The position numbers and the translations under genes were made by a program. Of a stretch of 44,168 bases of DNA, positions 37,677 to 43,816 are shown one piece after another; position 1 is the stretch's first letter, and each line of letters opens with the position of its first letter. Source of the DNA: an uncultured Saprospiraceae bacterium. GTDB taxonomy: Bacteria > Bacteroidota > Bacteroidia > Chitinophagales > Saprospiraceae. The DNA is taken from assembly GCA_937921825.1 (NCBI GenBank), contig CAKZVK010000060.1, forward strand, positions 1 to 44,168. Direction: 5' to 3'. The notes below the pieces were generated by a model. That model was not told the DNA's origin, did no database searches, and was given only the letters and a program-made list of their open reading frames with translations.

Positions 37677-38711
37677 CTAGTGAAGGCTGACGAGGTGCTT
37701 TTTTATTGATTTTATGAGTGCTGGACCACTATAGACCATACCAGAATAGACTTGTACTAAATCCGCCCCAGCAGCTAGCAAATCTGAGGCATGATGTGGT
37801 TCTGTAATTCCTCCTACACCGATAACAGGGATATCCTTATTACAAGATCTGATGTACCGGACCACCTCTAAGCTTCTTTTTCTTACAGGCAATCCACTTA
37901 GGCCTCCATTACCTATTTCCGATATTCTTGCTGGCGCTGTCTTGAGATCCGCTCGAGAAATAGTGGTGTTAGTGGCGATTATACCATCTACTTTTTGTGA
38001 CTCTAATATTTCTAAGACATCATCGATCTGACCTGTCGTGAGGTCTGGAGCTATCTTGAGTAATACTGGAATTTTCTTTGTCTTAGCATCTCTCAGTTGC
38101 ATGATATGAGAGAGCAGTCTTGTTAGAGGTTCTTTATCTTGGAGAGATCTCAGATCTGGTGTATTGGGAGAACTTACATTTACAACAAAGTAGTCTACGT
38201 AGGGATAGAGTTTATGAAAGCAAATCTCATAATCACTAATTGCCTCTTCGTTAGGTGTCACTTTATTCTTCCCTATATTTCCTCCTATAATCAATCCTTC
38301 TGAGCCATATTTTTCTAGACGGCTCACCATAGCATCTACCCCTTCATTATTGAAGCCCATCCTATTTATAAGGCCTTGATCTTGAGGTAGTCTGAAAAGT
38401 CTTGGCTGCGGATTACCATCTTGTCCTACAGGAGTCACAGTTCCTATTTCTATAAATCCAAAACCGAGAGCAGACATGGTCCTATAATACTTTCCATCTT
38501 TATCAAAACCTGCCGCGAGGCCTACAGGATTAGAAAATTTAATCCCTAATACTTCCTTCTTTAGACTCTCATGTTCGTAGCTATACAGGGCCCTGATCAG
38601 AGTACCTACAAGAGGAATATGTATAAGAATATCAAATAAGCTTGTCGTCGTGTGATGTGCCTTTTCTGGGGACAGTAGAAATAAAAAGGGCTTGAGAAGC
38701 AGTCTATACAC
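37677..38711 (-). CDS. pyrD: Dihydroorotate dehydrogenase (quinone), class 2
   Basis: It oxidises dihydroorotate to orotate in pyrimidine synthesis, passing electrons through FMN to membrane quinone. The 344 residues show the class 2 N-terminal membrane-associating helix (MYRLLLKPFLFLLSPEKAHH), then KFSNPVGLAAGFDKDG, IEIGTVTPVGQDGNPQPRLF, RMGFNNEG, catalytic-region VNVSSPNTPDLR, LLKIAPDL, IATNTT, and phosphate-binding GVGGI with VQVYSGMVYSGP. The start is GTG 38711, directly after the crp-family stop codon with no gap, so translation is probably coupled. It is last of the dnaX-crp-pyrD group. Confidence 0.95.
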   Translation of the reverse strand: MYRLLLKPFLFLLSPEKAHHTTTSLFDILIHIPLVGTLIRALYSYEHESLKKEVLGIKFSNPVGLAAGFDKDGKYYRTMSALGFGFIEIGTVTPVGQDGNPQPRLFRLPQDQGLINRMGFNNEGVDAMVSRLEKYGSEGLIIGGNIGKNKVTPNEEAISDYEICFHKLYPYVDYFVVNVSSPNTPDLRSLQDKEPLTRLLSHIMQLRDAKTKKIPVLLKIAPDLTTGQIDDVLEILESQKVDGIIATNTTISRADLKTAPARISEIGNGGLSGLPVRKRSLEVVRYIRSCNKDIPVIGVGGITEPHHASDLLAAGADLVQVYSGMVYSGPALIKSIKKHLVSLH

Positions 38712-39398
38712 TTACTTTATTTCTTCTTTGAGTTTGTCTAAATCCCTTACTAGAAGTCGTTTCCGATTGAAGGTTATAATTTCTGAAGCTCTTAATTCAT
38801 TCAGAACAGTAGTTACTGTCTGCCTGGAAGTCGCCGTAAGGTTTGCAATTTCTTGATGGGTATTAAAATTTCTTACTACCCATTCATAACCCACTCGCTG
38901 ACCATTCTTTCTTACCAATTCTACGAGATACTCTACTATTCTACTTCTTGAATCTTTAAAGACTAGGGACTCTAATCTATTCTCCATTTCCAAGACTTTA
39001 GAACCCATCATCTTCATGAAGAACATACTCAGAGAGCCATGATCTTTTATAAGCGAAGTCATTTCGGAGGATTTTATGGCACACAATTTTACATCCTCAA
39101 TGGCGACTGCATAGTCTCTTCTTTTGTGTTCTCCTACCAGTGAAAGTTCACCAAAGACTTCTCCTCTATTAAGGATGGCTTTGATAATTTCTTTTCCTTC
39201 CTCGGAAGTAGAACCGATGCGTACTCTTCCTTCAGCAATAAAATATATAGTGTCGCTGGCAGCATCAGGCATATACACATACTCGCCTCTTTCTATTTTC
39301 ATTAAATGGTCATCCTGCTGCCTATCCCCAAGTTTTTGAGGACAAAAAATTGTGCTGACATCAATATTCTCGAGATACCAGATGGACTTTTCACTCAT
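38712..39398 (-). CDS. Crp/Fnr family transcriptional regulator
   Basis: This is a 228-residue one-component regulator. Residues ~25-135 form the cyclic-nucleotide-binding-like barrel (MKIERGEYVYMPDAASDTIY, GEVFGELSLVG, RDYAVAIEDVKLCAI), followed by the long dimer helix and a C-terminal winged helix-turn-helix (~150-225; NTHQEIANLTATSRQTVTTV, FNRKRLLVRDL). There is no cysteine cluster as in Fnr; the effector is unknown. The GEVFGELSL stretch lacks the full RxA pocket of Crp (usual GExxGExxLxxxxxRxA), with RRDYAVA carrying an Arg nearby. It lies 29 nt after dnaX and abuts pyrD. A 22-bp palindrome of Crp-like geometry sits upstream of dnaX (41284-41305). Confidence 0.9.
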   Translation of the reverse strand: MSEKSIWYLENIDVSTIFCPQKLGDRQQDDHLMKIERGEYVYMPDAASDTIYFIAEGRVRIGSTSEEGKEIIKAILNRGEVFGELSLVGEHKRRDYAVAIEDVKLCAIKSSEMTSLIKDHGSLSMFFMKMMGSKVLEMENRLESLVFKDSRSRIVEYLVELVRKNGQRVGYEWVVRNFNTHQEIANLTATSRQTVTTVLNELRASEIITFNRKRLLVRDLDKLKEEIK

Positions 39399-39427: not shown

Positions 39428-41164
39428 CTACTTAGCCTTTAAATTTAGTCGATGTATGAATGCTTCAAAGGTTGGGTTTTGCTGATTGAACAAAGCAATT
39501 TTTTCATTGGTTGTTAAAATCTTAACTTTTTCTGGTGGTTTGTAGTCGGGAAATACACTTGAGTCAACTTCAAAGACTATTTCTATCTCTTTTTTGGGGT
39601 AATGAGATCTGATATCCAGAATCATGTCAGATTCTTGTTTTAACAATTCTGAAAAAACTTCTGATGGTGCAAAAATTGTGAGTTTATTGTCTTTGACTAC
39701 CACCTTAGAGTTGGTCACTGCACTTTTAAAAGAATTCAGTAATGATTTCTTCTTCCACTCTTGTAGAATCCCACCGATAAACTCATCTGTAAAAGGATTC
39801 TTATGCGCTCTTTTCTTCTTCTCTTCCTTATCTATAGAGGCTACAAGAGCATCTATATCAGTAGTGATAGTAGGAGTCAATGAGGAATACTTTCTAGTCC
39901 TCTTGGATAGATCATCAGTAGTAAGTTCATTCTTACTCTTCTTGGATGCTGCAGCAGGTGCTTCTTTTACAATGCTAACTTTGGCGGTAGACTTTGAGTT
40001 AGCTTTTTTATTAGCCACTACCGCTGGTCTTGCCTTAGGTGGCTGTACTTCCGTTATCTTTTTTTTTTCGATAACCCTATTCATGTAAGCTATCTTACTG
40101 AGCGCTATCTCCATAGTTAGTCGCTTATTATGTGACCTCAATAGATTCATATCTGTCTTATCCAAAAGTGATAGTGCGGTCATGATAAATGAATCACTTG
40201 CGAGTGCCGCTTGGTCTTGAAATCTCACTTTTAGATTTTCACTAGTCTCCATTAGTTGAGCTGTCTGGAGATCTTTTACTAGAAGCAACTGTCTCAGATG
40301 GGCTAGCAAACCGGAGATAAACTGCTCGACCTCAAAACCATTTTTCACCACTTCATCAAACTGGAGCATCAGCGAAGTAAAATCTTCCTTGATTGCCGCG
40401 TCTATTATACTGAAGTAATAATCATGATCGAGAACATTAAGATTAGCTGCTACATCTTTATAGCTAATATTACCATCTAAAGTGCTCACCATCTTATCGT
40501 AGATAGAGAGGGCATCACGCATAGCACCGTCTGCCTTCTGTGCTATTAAGTGCAAGGCTTCATCATCAAAGGTTCTCTGCTCTTTATCAGCAATCTGCTG
40601 CACTTGATTCACTATATCTTTTATCTGGATTCTTCGGAAGTCGAAGATTTGGCAACGAGATAAGATGGTAGGAATTATCTTATGCTTTTCAGTTGTAGCC
40701 AAGATGAACTTAGCGTAAGGAGGAGGCTCCTCCAGTGTTTTTAGAAAAGCATTAAAGGCCGCTTGCGATAGCATATGGACCTCATCTATGATATAGATCT
40801 TATAGGAGCCCTGTTGCGGTTGGAATCGCACCTGATCATTAAGAGATCTGATGTGATCCACACTATTATTAGAGGCAGCATCTAATTCGAAAATATTGAA
40901 TGAGGCATTATCACTAAAGGCCTTACATGCTGAGCAAGTTTCACAAGCATGATATTCAGGACTTAGATTTTCGCAATTCAGCACTTTGGCGAGAATTCTT
41001 GCAGAGGTGGTTTTTCCTACCCCTCTAGGTCCTGAGAATAAAAAAGCATGAGCAAGCTTATCATTTTTGATTGCATTCTTTAGGGTAGTCGCAATGTGGT
41101 CTTGACCTACTAATTCGTCAAAATTTTTCGGTCTGTACTTTCTTGCAGATACTACAAAGCTCAT
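39428..41164 (-). CDS. dnaX: DNA polymerase III subunit tau (gamma by slippage)
   Basis: This clamp-loader ATPase holds the replicase together. At 578 residues, the AAA+ module has Walker A GPRGVGKTT (Lys51), zinc ligands Cys64, 74, 77 and 80 (CETCSAC), DEVHM, and sensor region ILSRCQIFDFRR. The collar domain III ends near residue 365, followed by a lysine/alanine-rich linker and a C-terminal tau-type domain (~460-578, FTDEFIGGILQEW). Exactly at the domain III end, codons 366-369 (GAA AAA AAA AAG) form an A10 run. A -1 shift, or an extra A, leads to a stop after seven codons; a missing A stops at once. This predicts a gamma-like product of about 370-376 residues. It is first gene of dnaX-crp-pyrD. 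Confidence 0.95.
   Translation of the reverse strand: MSFVVSARKYRPKNFDELVGQDHIATTLKNAIKNDKLAHAFLFSGPRGVGKTTSARILAKVLNCENLSPEYHACETCSACKAFSDNASFNIFELDAASNNSVDHIRSLNDQVRFQPQQGSYKIYIIDEVHMLSQAAFNAFLKTLEEPPPYAKFILATTEKHKIIPTILSRCQIFDFRRIQIKDIVNQVQQIADKEQRTFDDEALHLIAQKADGAMRDALSIYDKMVSTLDGNISYKDVAANLNVLDHDYYFSIIDAAIKEDFTSLMLQFDEVVKNGFEVEQFISGLLAHLRQLLLVKDLQTAQLMETSENLKVRFQDQAALASDSFIMTALSLLDKTDMNLLRSHNKRLTMEIALSKIAYMNRVIEKKKITEVQPPKARPAVVANKKANSKSTAKVSIVKEAPAAASKKSKNELTTDDLSKRTRKYSSLTPTITTDIDALVASIDKEEKKKRAHKNPFTDEFIGGILQEWKKKSLLNSFKSAVTNSKVVVKDNKLTIFAPSEVFSELLKQESDMILDIRSHYPKKEIEIVFEVDSSVFPDYKPPEKVKILTTNEKIALFNQQNPTFEAFIHRLNLKAK
40053..40075 (-). promoter_or_regulatory. Slippery A10 run in dnaX with flanking inverted repeat
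   Basis: On the minus strand ten A (40068-40059) span codons 366-369 and include the heptamer A AAA AAG in the reading phase used for -1 shifting in E. coli dnaX. GTTATC and GATAAC flank the run as a 6-bp inverted repeat, placing the A run in the loop. All slippage products meet stop codons within eight codons. Confidence 0.65.
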
Positions 41165-41410: not shown

Positions 41411-43816
41411 ATGAAGGCTAACTCATTAGTGATCAGTCTTTGTACTCTGATAGCGTTATTTCTACTCAATAATAACCTTATCGCCTCGGGCCCTATAATC
41501 GTAGAAGGGGTCGATAATGTACAAGAGACCTGCAACCTTGGAAATGGTGAACTCAAGATTAATATCTCGAGTGACACTACAGGCTTGCTCTATTCCATAG
41601 ATGGTGGTACTACTTTCACCAGCAACAATCATTTTACAAACCTACACAGCGGAAACTTTCCAATCATGGTACTAGATCCGTCGGGTTGCTTTCTAGAATT
41701 AACAACCCAAATCGCAGATGCTCCAGAACCTACTGTGAGCATAAGTTCAGAATGCATCGAAGGCAGAGACAGGGTCACTGTAGAGGCTAACCCAGAAGGG
41801 GGAATCCTACCTTACCGATTTGAATGGCAGGGTCCAAATGGCGCAAGATATACAGATGAAACTCTGGTAGATGTTCCTCCTGGTGACTATATCATAACAG
41901 TGATTGATGATCTAGGATGTAACTTCTCTGATTCGATTTCTATAGAAAAATGTTGTGGATTAGAACTGGTCTGTAACCCTTCTGATACAGTGGTGACCTG
42001 TGCCAGCTCATTTCCAGAAATGTCAACTTTCTTTACAGCAACAAATGAGCAAAATGAGATTATAAATGAGCTTTCAGAATTAGGCATAGATGTTATGCCT
42101 AATAGATGTGGTGATCTAAATGTATCCATAGAAGACACTGATGAAAACCTACCTACCTGCTCTAAGAATGAACTTCTTGTCTATAGGAATTATAACATTT
42201 CGGATGGTTTTAGTTCTATGACTTGTACTAAAAGCATTCTGGTAGAAAACTATATTGATGTAGAATTATATTCTGATGCCATAGATATTGCAGTTAGTTG
42301 TGATCAAGATGTCCAGAATATATTTTCAGGTTGGATAGACCAAATGGGAGGCATGACATATAGTGACTGTGCAGATGAAAATAGCAGAGTTACTATTCCA
42401 GCTAATCCTGCGATAGATGGAATGTGTGGCTCTTTTGTAGAGGTTGAATTTTTTGTACAAGACAACTGTGGTAATGAAGTAAGCACTAAAGCAACCTTCT
42501 CTGTAGTAGACTCTATTTTTCCACAACTCATCTGTCCTGACGACCTAATTATCTCACCAGGCAGTTCTGATATTAACTCAGAAATCGACTTATGGCGGGA
42601 CTCTGCAATAGCATCAGATAACTGTGCTCAGAATCTTCAAATCTTAAATAACCTAACCACTGATTTTTCTGACCCTTGTAGTCTGAGTGACCTACCAGTG
42701 ATATTCGAAGTCAGTGATGATTGTGATAACAAAACCCAATGTGAAGCCAACATTGTATTCTTGTACAATACACCAACTATCAACTGTCCACAAAATCTTA
42801 CGGTATCTTGTGATACTGATAATCTAGATGCTGAAATAAATAATTGGGTAGAACTTGTAATCGCAGAAAACCATGATAATAATGATATCCACTACGAGAT
42901 ACCTACTGAATTAGGATTACAAAGCTGTCAGGAAGAAACTGAAATTGTCTTCGTAGTTAATAACAACTGTGGAGCATCTGCAGACTGTCAGGCACAAATA
43001 ATAATCATAGATCAAGAAGCACCGATCATAAGCTGTCCACAAGATCTTACCATTAACACCTCAGAGGAAGATGTAGAACTTATGATCACTTCTTGGTTAG
43101 AGATGGCCAGTGCAGATGATTGTAACCTTGATGCAGTGGAACATAATTTTACTAAGGATCTCTCAGAGTTACAATGCTCTGAAATCATCCCCGTAACATT
43201 TAGAGCTACTGATCTATGCGCACTTTCAAGTAACTGTTCCGCCACTCTATGGGTAGAGAGCGATTCTACCATTGAAGCGATTTGTCCAGAGCCTATTTCT
43301 ATTTCTTGCGAGGACCCATTGATGGAGAATATGATAGAAGCACATCTTAATAGTGTGATAATAATGGCAAGTAATGAATATGAGATGACTAGCAATTTCG
43401 AAATGGACCTTATAGATTCAGACTGTTCCGAGACTAGCTATTACGATATAGAAATCTCTGTTATTGACCTCTGTGATAATTATGCTGAATGCAGAAGTAG
43501 CATAGAACTAGTACCAGAACCAAAAATTTACATCCCTAATGTATTCTCACCAGATGGAGATGGCCTAAATGATTACTTCACTGTATATTCCAATAGTGCG
43601 GTGTCCATGGTACAATCTCTGACAATATTTAACAGATGGGGAGACAAGGTCTACGAGGCAGAAGAATTCCCAACTAACGATACAAATATAGGCTGGGATG
43701 GAAAATATCGTGGAAAGCTGGAAAACAATAATGTCTACACCTATTATGCAGTGCTGCAAGATACCTCAGGGAACGAAATAGAAAAAGTCGGAACAGTTCA
43801 GATTTTGAAGAAGTAA
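41411..43816 (+). CDS. Large cysteine-rich secreted protein with T9SS type B (gliding-associated) sorting domain
   Basis: This is an 801-residue exported protein. Signal peptide at 1-26 (LVISLCTLIALFLLNNNLIA). Two SprB-like repeats (about 35-95 and 108-180; LYSIDGGTTFTSNNHFTNL, YRFEWQGPNGARY, DYIITVIDDLGC) precede four to five cysteine-rich, HYR-like Ig repeats (about 190-700), each opening with a CPxxLxI strand (CPDDLIISPG, CPQNLTVSCD, CPQDLTINTS) and ending in CxxxSxCxA-type pairs. The last about 95 residues (IPNVFSPDGDGLNDYF, FNRWGDKVYEAEEFP, YYAVLQDTSG) form the type B domain. This is the architecture of surface adhesins in gliding Bacteroidota. It is monocistronic. Confidence 0.9.
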   Translation: MKANSLVISLCTLIALFLLNNNLIASGPIIVEGVDNVQETCNLGNGELKINISSDTTGLLYSIDGGTTFTSNNHFTNLHSGNFPIMVLDPSGCFLELTTQIADAPEPTVSISSECIEGRDRVTVEANPEGGILPYRFEWQGPNGARYTDETLVDVPPGDYIITVIDDLGCNFSDSISIEKCCGLELVCNPSDTVVTCASSFPEMSTFFTATNEQNEIINELSELGIDVMPNRCGDLNVSIEDTDENLPTCSKNELLVYRNYNISDGFSSMTCTKSILVENYIDVELYSDAIDIAVSCDQDVQNIFSGWIDQMGGMTYSDCADENSRVTIPANPAIDGMCGSFVEVEFFVQDNCGNEVSTKATFSVVDSIFPQLICPDDLIISPGSSDINSEIDLWRDSAIASDNCAQNLQILNNLTTDFSDPCSLSDLPVIFEVSDDCDNKTQCEANIVFLYNTPTINCPQNLTVSCDTDNLDAEINNWVELVIAENHDNNDIHYEIPTELGLQSCQEETEIVFVVNNNCGASADCQAQIIIIDQEAPIISCPQDLTINTSEEDVELMITSWLEMASADDCNLDAVEHNFTKDLSELQCSEIIPVTFRATDLCALSSNCSATLWVESDSTIEAICPEPISISCEDPLMENMIEAHLNSVIIMASNEYEMTSNFEMDLIDSDCSETSYYDIEISVIDLCDNYAECRSSIELVPEPKIYIPNVFSPDGDGLNDYFTVYSNSAVSMVQSLTIFNRWGDKVYEAEEFPTNDTNIGWDGKYRGKLENNNVYTYYAVLQDTSGNEIEKVGTVQILKK

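Follow-up and report, generated by a model that had tools for sequence, protein, structure and literature searches.

The window analysed here, that is, the whole stretch of 44,168 bases, carries on its minus strand an open reading frame encoding DnaX, the gamma/tau subunit of DNA polymerase III (table 1). The protein scores 443.3 bits against the profile TIGR02397 (cut-off 250) and matches also PF13177, PF22608 and PF12169, showing the AAA+ clamp-loader core and the domain III that characterize the DnaX gamma/tau family, while its best matches among solved chains are the gamma and tau proteins of Escherichia coli (gamma 1jr3, E 1.4e-73). Genes for a Crp-type regulator (38712-39398) and for dihydroorotate dehydrogenase (37677-38711) lie 3' of dnaX on the same minus strand. 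A divergent gene on the plus strand (41411-43816) encodes a protein of 801 aa with a C-terminal CHU_C type IX secretion signal domain.

Table 1. Position of dnaX and of the elements around its A10 run within the window.
Feature	Position	Strand	Basis or remark
dnaX, DNA polymerase III subunit gamma/tau	39428..41164	-	578 aa, full-length tau frame with A10
DnaX domain III (collar), residues 236-369, with A10 at its end	40058..40459	-	Pfam PF12169
A10 run in mRNA, codons 366-369 (proposed slippery site)	40059..40068	-	Sequence; nine or more A in 287/331 readable Bacteroidia dnaX
Tau-specific linker and C-terminal region, residues 370-578, absent from gamma	39431..40057	-	ORF; C-terminus profile
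5' arm of 6-bp inverted repeat, GTTATC in mRNA	40070..40075	-	Pairs in fold; probably incidental
3' arm of the repeat, GATAAC in mRNA, containing the -1 stop	40053..40058	-	Pairs in fold; probably incidental as hairpin arm
TAA ending the gamma-like form of 376 aa after +1 A, or of 375 aa after -2 A	40035..40037	-	Sequence; computed product
TAA ending the gamma-like form of 369 aa after -1 A, or of 370 aa after +2 A	40054..40056	-	Sequence; computed product

The feature of interest is the run of ten A in the dnaX message, which on the minus strand has the context GGGTTATCG-A10-GATAACGG. Codons 366-369 read GAA AAA AAA AAG, so that the heptamer A_AAA_AAG lies in phase, and the run coincides with the end of the PF12169 match; both points confirm what a first-pass annotation of this DNA had claimed. 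Translation of the unslipped message gives a computed product of 578 aa and 65.3 kDa. With one A added the product has 376 aa (42.5 kDa), seven new codons preceding a TAA, exactly as predicted in that annotation for an added A or a -1 shift. Loss of one A had been said to bring an immediate TAA: it does truncate the protein, to 369 aa (41.9 kDa), but one new codon (Arg) stands before the stop. Two additional or two missing A produce 370 and 375 aa, respectively. The gene displays two traits of slippage sites of the Thermus type. Domain III is separated from the tau C-terminus by a run of at least about nine A, here ten, and both off frames have close stops, here after one and seven new codons.

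Taken alone, a single run of this length in a window of 44,168 bases is unsurprising. Nowhere else in the window do nine or more A, or nine or more T, stand in succession, and shuffled sequences of window size have on average 1.33 A9 matches, with 36 out of 100 shuffles reaching at least the two overlapping matches observed. Given the residues E-K-K-K and the synonymous codon usage of this gene, an unbroken run has a probability of 0.135. Runs of nine or more A are not rare in the source genome either: 76 overlapping matches correspond to 63 separate A/T runs, and among 23 of the latter that were inspected, eight, one of them in dnaX, fall within open frames of at least 190 codons that have the A on their coding strand. 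The run could be a coding accident without any part in expression, arising because the linker is rich in lysine and the genome leans towards AT, and both its probability in this gene and the occurrence of similar runs in other open frames of the genome would agree with such an explanation. In the window by itself the run is unremarkable, and any significance it has comes only from the comparison with relatives.

Matches to dnaX were found in 11 of 14 genomes of the genus, 95 of 100 of the family, 192 of 198 of the order, 116 of 119 of the class and 116 of 118 of the phylum, these sets being overlapping. The source organism is probably a member of Saprospiraceae, as two genomes of its family (f1) share 300 nt of dnaX, without any mismatch, with records of a Saprospiraceae MAG and an Aureispira MAG. 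At most 30 of the matched loci were read per search, some of them partly chosen for short open frames, and a set of named loci was composed of the best 80 out of at least 592. Ten loci repeating a genome and four identical by sequence were dropped before counting, together with loci lacking a usable anchor (e.g., L078), four of insufficient length and two in which the site contains N.

A run of nine or more A lies just past domain III in 287 of the 331 readable dnaX genes thus sampled from the class Bacteroidia. Within the genus, A9 or A10 occupies the same place in all 11 dnaX genes found, with a joint synonymous probability of 10^-7.4 if kinship is ignored; the run is also present in 84 of 93 readable genes from the rest of the family, 63 of 66 from the rest of the order, 75 of 86 from the rest of the class and 54 of 75 in the named set, as well as in 9 of the 21 genes examined outside the class. 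Relatives with a broken run, which the first-pass annotation had named as evidence against its proposal, are therefore absent from the genus and in the minority in the family, even if 44 of the 331 Bacteroidia genes do lack the run. The same annotation had presented the device as one of this Bacteroidota lineage, and there it is indeed found; it is not particular to that lineage, however, since it occurs in most sampled families of Bacteroidia. Beyond the genus the run shifts along the linker, from 16 to 70 codons after the residue aligned to 345, and its amino-acid setting changes while the run itself persists. Relatives have runs of 9 to 13 A, both register states are represented among them, and some have lost the run.

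Could the amino-acid sequence of the linker account for such persistence? When linkers were recoded with the codon usage of their own gene, 104 genes were expected to have the run, against 286 observed out of 326, a difference that leads us to reject a chance product of the protein sequence. (Five of the 331 genes, L284, L383, L386, L395 and L405, were left out of this null because they have fewer than 30 linker codons before the stop.) Outside the linker, the same genes contain only eight such runs in 504,945 nt, roughly seven times the linker total of 73,239 nt. Where tau is in frame, the 10 codons past the run contain an off-frame stop in 214 of 214 genes after addition of one A (null 0.68) and in 203 of 214 after loss of one A (null 0.53). 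One sequence that recurs in the family, GAA AAA AAA ACG CCT GAC CTA AGC, has a TGA in one off frame and a TAA in the other, both at most four codons past the run. Conservation of the run and of its nearby stops at synonymous sites, which had been suggested as a check of the original observation, is thus strongly positive. Stops are enriched in both off frames and, in the 72 relatives described below, tau is split at the run while retaining a conserved C-terminus. As judged from these comparisons, the notion of a coding accident is largely contradicted, and we consider it very improbable.

In those 72 genes of Bacteroidia, gamma is encoded in the zero frame, which ends at a stop just after the run, and tau continues in another frame, the arrangement typical of the split genes detected by GeneTack and different from that of the window gene. 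One additional A is needed to restore tau in 65 of them, and one A less in the other 7. Their off-frame tau C-termini match in 72 out of 72 cases (worst E 7.3e-14) a profile built from 213 in-frame tau C-termini. Runs of at least 10 A are found in 68 of the 72 frame-swapped genes versus 128 of the 214 with tau in frame (Fisher p 3.5e-9, kinship ignored), and longer runs are what would be expected if tau depended on slipping. Since some loci had been picked for short open frames, the ratio of swapped to unswapped genes should not be read as a prevalence. A separate start of translation for the tau C-terminus in swapped genes was evaluated as a candidate and rejected, an ATG (the only start considered) lying within 40 codons past the run in just 7 of the 72 swapped genes and in 34 of the 214 with tau in frame.

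In a FastTree tree of 352 N-terminal sequences, some from outside the class, the 295 labelled genes require a minimum of 43 changes of register, and presence of the run changes at least 29 times, both counts being inflated by weak branches. This frequency of register changes might be taken to indicate that the variation resides in the DNA, either as phase variation or as sequencing error, and that the swapped relatives are off-variants or mistakes; moreover, all 65 genes of the +1 type would regain the tau frame with a single further A, the pattern that undercalling of homopolymers would produce. Against this, the swapped state is common to some genera, being present in eight of eight genes of genus g117 (family f18) and in the three genes read of g118 (family f19), all of the -1 type (a fourth match lies outside the three), though it is not universal in others (5 of 6 read genes in g148 and 2 of 3 in g128). 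It is found in single-contig genomes (L257 and L263, plus L310 outside the class), it accompanies longer runs and it includes the seven genes of the -1 type. Variation or error at the DNA level has, in our judgement, hardly any chance of being the correct explanation.

A more serious competitor is the mechanism of E. coli, in which -1 programmed ribosomal frameshifting at A_AAA_AAG would produce gamma. The gene and its two products are the same, the window gene has the heptamer in the proper phase, a -1 shift there leads to 376 aa ending at the nearby TAA, and a stem is predicted 14 nt 3' of the window run. In addition, 65 of the 72 swapped relatives need the equivalent of a -1 shift, and SD-like motifs are in excess upstream of the run in frame-swapped genes (13/76 vs. 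2/76 in control windows, compared with 23/218 vs. 14/218 when tau is in frame; these sets of 76 and 218 loci include a few outside the class). Upstream structure is likewise stronger in frame-swapped genes, with a mean z of -0.87 versus -0.39 for the control. This upstream excess of motifs and structure suggests that other stimulators or auxiliary elements may exist.

Among the relatives, however, no more than 36 of the 214 genes having tau in frame and 20 of the 72 swapped ones have A_AAA_AAG in phase, so that the heptamer is rejected as a conserved element, and runs occur in all three phases. The stem of the window has a z of -0.59, within the range of shuffles, and is not common to the genus, in which the z of the downstream fold goes from -1.53 to 1.89. 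Over all relatives, no excess of RNA structure downstream of the run was found with respect to control windows in the 218 and 76 loci, the mean z being -0.13 for tau in frame and -0.24 for the frame-swapped genes versus control values of -0.30 and -0.39. Furthermore, seven relatives need the opposite direction, for which the heptamer cannot be used, and stops after -1 A are enriched too. It is because the run is conserved rather than the phased heptamer, because downstream structure does not exceed the control and because both registers exist that slippage is to be favoured over ribosomal shifting, in agreement with the guess of the first-pass annotation; swapped relatives need both directions, which agrees with slippage of RNA but not with ribosomes that shift by -1 only. 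We consequently regard ribosomal frameshifting as an unlikely origin of gamma in these bacteria. Some additional -1 shifting by ribosomes is possible in the window gene, given its in-phase heptamer and the stem predicted to follow the run.

The inverted repeat GTTATC/GATAAC, previously reported to flank the run, is present and pairs in the predicted fold of the window (z -2.40 for the stretch of 121 nt). It is not a conserved element, since GATAAC follows the run in none of the 10 other sequences of the genus. For this reason the repeat, which was considered as a functional hairpin, is probably incidental.

In mechanistic terms, the A10 of dnaX is most probably a programmed site of transcriptional slippage, of the type found in Thermus, that yields gamma along with tau. 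As the T10 of the template is transcribed, the polymerase and its nascent RNA would realign, with the result that part of the dnaX transcripts would contain extra or missing A. Transcripts with 10 or 10+3n A would be translated into tau of 578 aa, while those with other numbers of A would end one to seven codons past the run, giving rise to a gamma-like clamp-loader subunit of 369-376 aa that would keep domains I-III without the polymerase-binding C-terminus. The situation would be reversed in relatives having the run out of register, in which slippage would make tau and unslipped transcripts would make gamma. Production of tau and gamma by slippage, as originally proposed for this DNA, thus finds support at the level of comparative genomics. 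The sequences themselves show the run, its position, the conserved off-frame stops and the swapped relatives with their conserved tau C-termini; from these we infer that the RNA would slip, how often it would do so, and that cells would contain and use gamma.

This proposal needs to be considered with respect to the systems already known. Thermus makes gamma by slippage on A9 and, in the portions of the reports consulted (PMC1088944; PMC5009743), the dnaX gene of Thermus thermophilus resembles ours in having an A homopolymer, tau in the zero frame and stops close by in each of the remaining frames, with runs of any other length truncating the product to gamma. It differs in belonging to another phylum and in that slippage has been demonstrated there, being deduced here; moreover, the run abuts domain III in our gene. 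The GeneTack survey, according to the sections available (PMC3711429), retrieved 17 split dnaX genes from 12 genera, 12 of the 17 with a poly-A of 7-10 residues and nine with A10. Its text names three species of Chlorobi, and the nine species with A10 may include Bacteroidota. Those genes, having an A run with tau off frame, are similar to the swapped relatives described here and dissimilar from the window gene, in which tau is in frame. The survey reports -1 frameshifts for all 17 genes, whereas in Bacteroidia 65 genes need an added A and 7 the removal of one; differing directions of frameshift within one gene family are, in the same source, a criterion for transcriptional realignment (PMC3711429).

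Caulobacter, too, obtains a shorter gamma from tau, by proteolysis (PMC5009743, in the part consulted). This precedent could be invoked for the window gene, in which proteolysis of tau would then be the source of gamma; yet it would leave unexplained both the conserved A run with its off-frame stops and the genes having tau off frame, and we attach next to no probability to it. In the passages accessible to us, PMC3290774 states that in most other bacteria dnaX does not retain the signatures of frameshifting and that these bacteria may do without gamma, the importance of which outside enterobacteria has been doubted (PMC3290774). Slippage of dnaX across Bacteroidia did not appear in the literature searched, which lacks most subscription journals, and this is not proof of novelty. 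The device would be known in kind, then, its extent throughout a class being without description in that literature.

Retention of a slippage site in most sampled members of the class, some of which even have tau off frame, would speak for widespread selection of a short clamp-loader subunit. The natural variants, with runs of different length, both registers and lost runs, offer material for testing the rate of slippage and the need for gamma. In genomes with the swapped arrangement, DnaX may appear truncated when annotated automatically. The main interest of these results is in the reach of the run across the class, in the frequent swapping of register and in a variant with UAG that is found among the genes without the run.

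The latter genes, 44 out of 331, indicate that the device is dispensable in some lineages. They include all nine loci named Bacteroidaceae, Bacteroides, Prevotella or Prevotellaceae among the best 80 of at least 592 named loci. Ten dnaX genes of gut Bacteroidales without A run (L383/L408, L386/L407, L405/L409, L410, L414-L417, L419 and L420) have at that place an in-frame UAG, 21-27 codons after the residue aligned to 345, "gut" being here a reading of the record names, for two of the ten via MAG records with rumen origin codes. The motif TAGATWGCNAGR follows 3' of the UAG in 10 out of 10, the linker being otherwise variable, and past the stop there are 189-254 open codons that match the profile of the tau C-terminus (E 1e-21 or lower) and terminate at TGA or TAA. 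In one family that was searched, an internal TAG is present in at least 8 of 59 matching genomes, a lower bound because some matches ended before the site; other members of this family have either the A run (e.g., L426-L428 and L430) or neither device. The possibility that the motif is a dispersed repeat was rejected, for TAGATWGCNAGR occurs 22 times in 13 genomes, 10 times in dnaX and 12 times elsewhere, versus 9 for the reversed control. No stem-loop shared 3' of the UAG was seen in single-sequence folds, which differ among the ten genes.

How might these bacteria obtain tau? The simplest reading is that UAG readthrough would make it, and we put this forward as a candidate mechanism suggested by the sequences; the genes may, on the other hand, simply encode gamma followed by a tail that is separately started or unused. 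The choice between gamma and tau in Bacteroidia could be an old, selected switch served by interchangeable devices at one fixed place past domain III. Genes with tau in frame would use slippage, genes with gamma in frame would use slippage of one direction or the other, and a number of gut Bacteroidales without the run would make tau by readthrough of UAG plus TAGATWGCNAGR. We would give this broader scenario an even chance of being right. Were it true, dnaX with stop readthrough would represent a further way of obtaining the two proteins from one gene.

A few individual genes deserve mention. The longest run found is the A13 of L395, which has a zero-frame stop and a +1 frame open to the contig end, and the A12 of L390, a Proteiniphilum MAG with tau in frame, is also among the longest. 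In L398, a Bacteroidales MAG, a zero-frame TAA (GAGTGCTAAAAATCC) is found at codon 38 after the residue aligned to 345, with another frame open across it and no A run of seven or more; this could be another form of recoding or an assembly error. L284, from a genome of 0.5 Mb in one contig (family f47), has a zero-frame stop right after domain III and equally no A run of seven or more; on the basis of its zero frame alone, it may make gamma only. Finally, L153, L288 and L294 have A7 at the expected place with off-frame stops still within 4-6 codons, and they look like decayed slippage sites.
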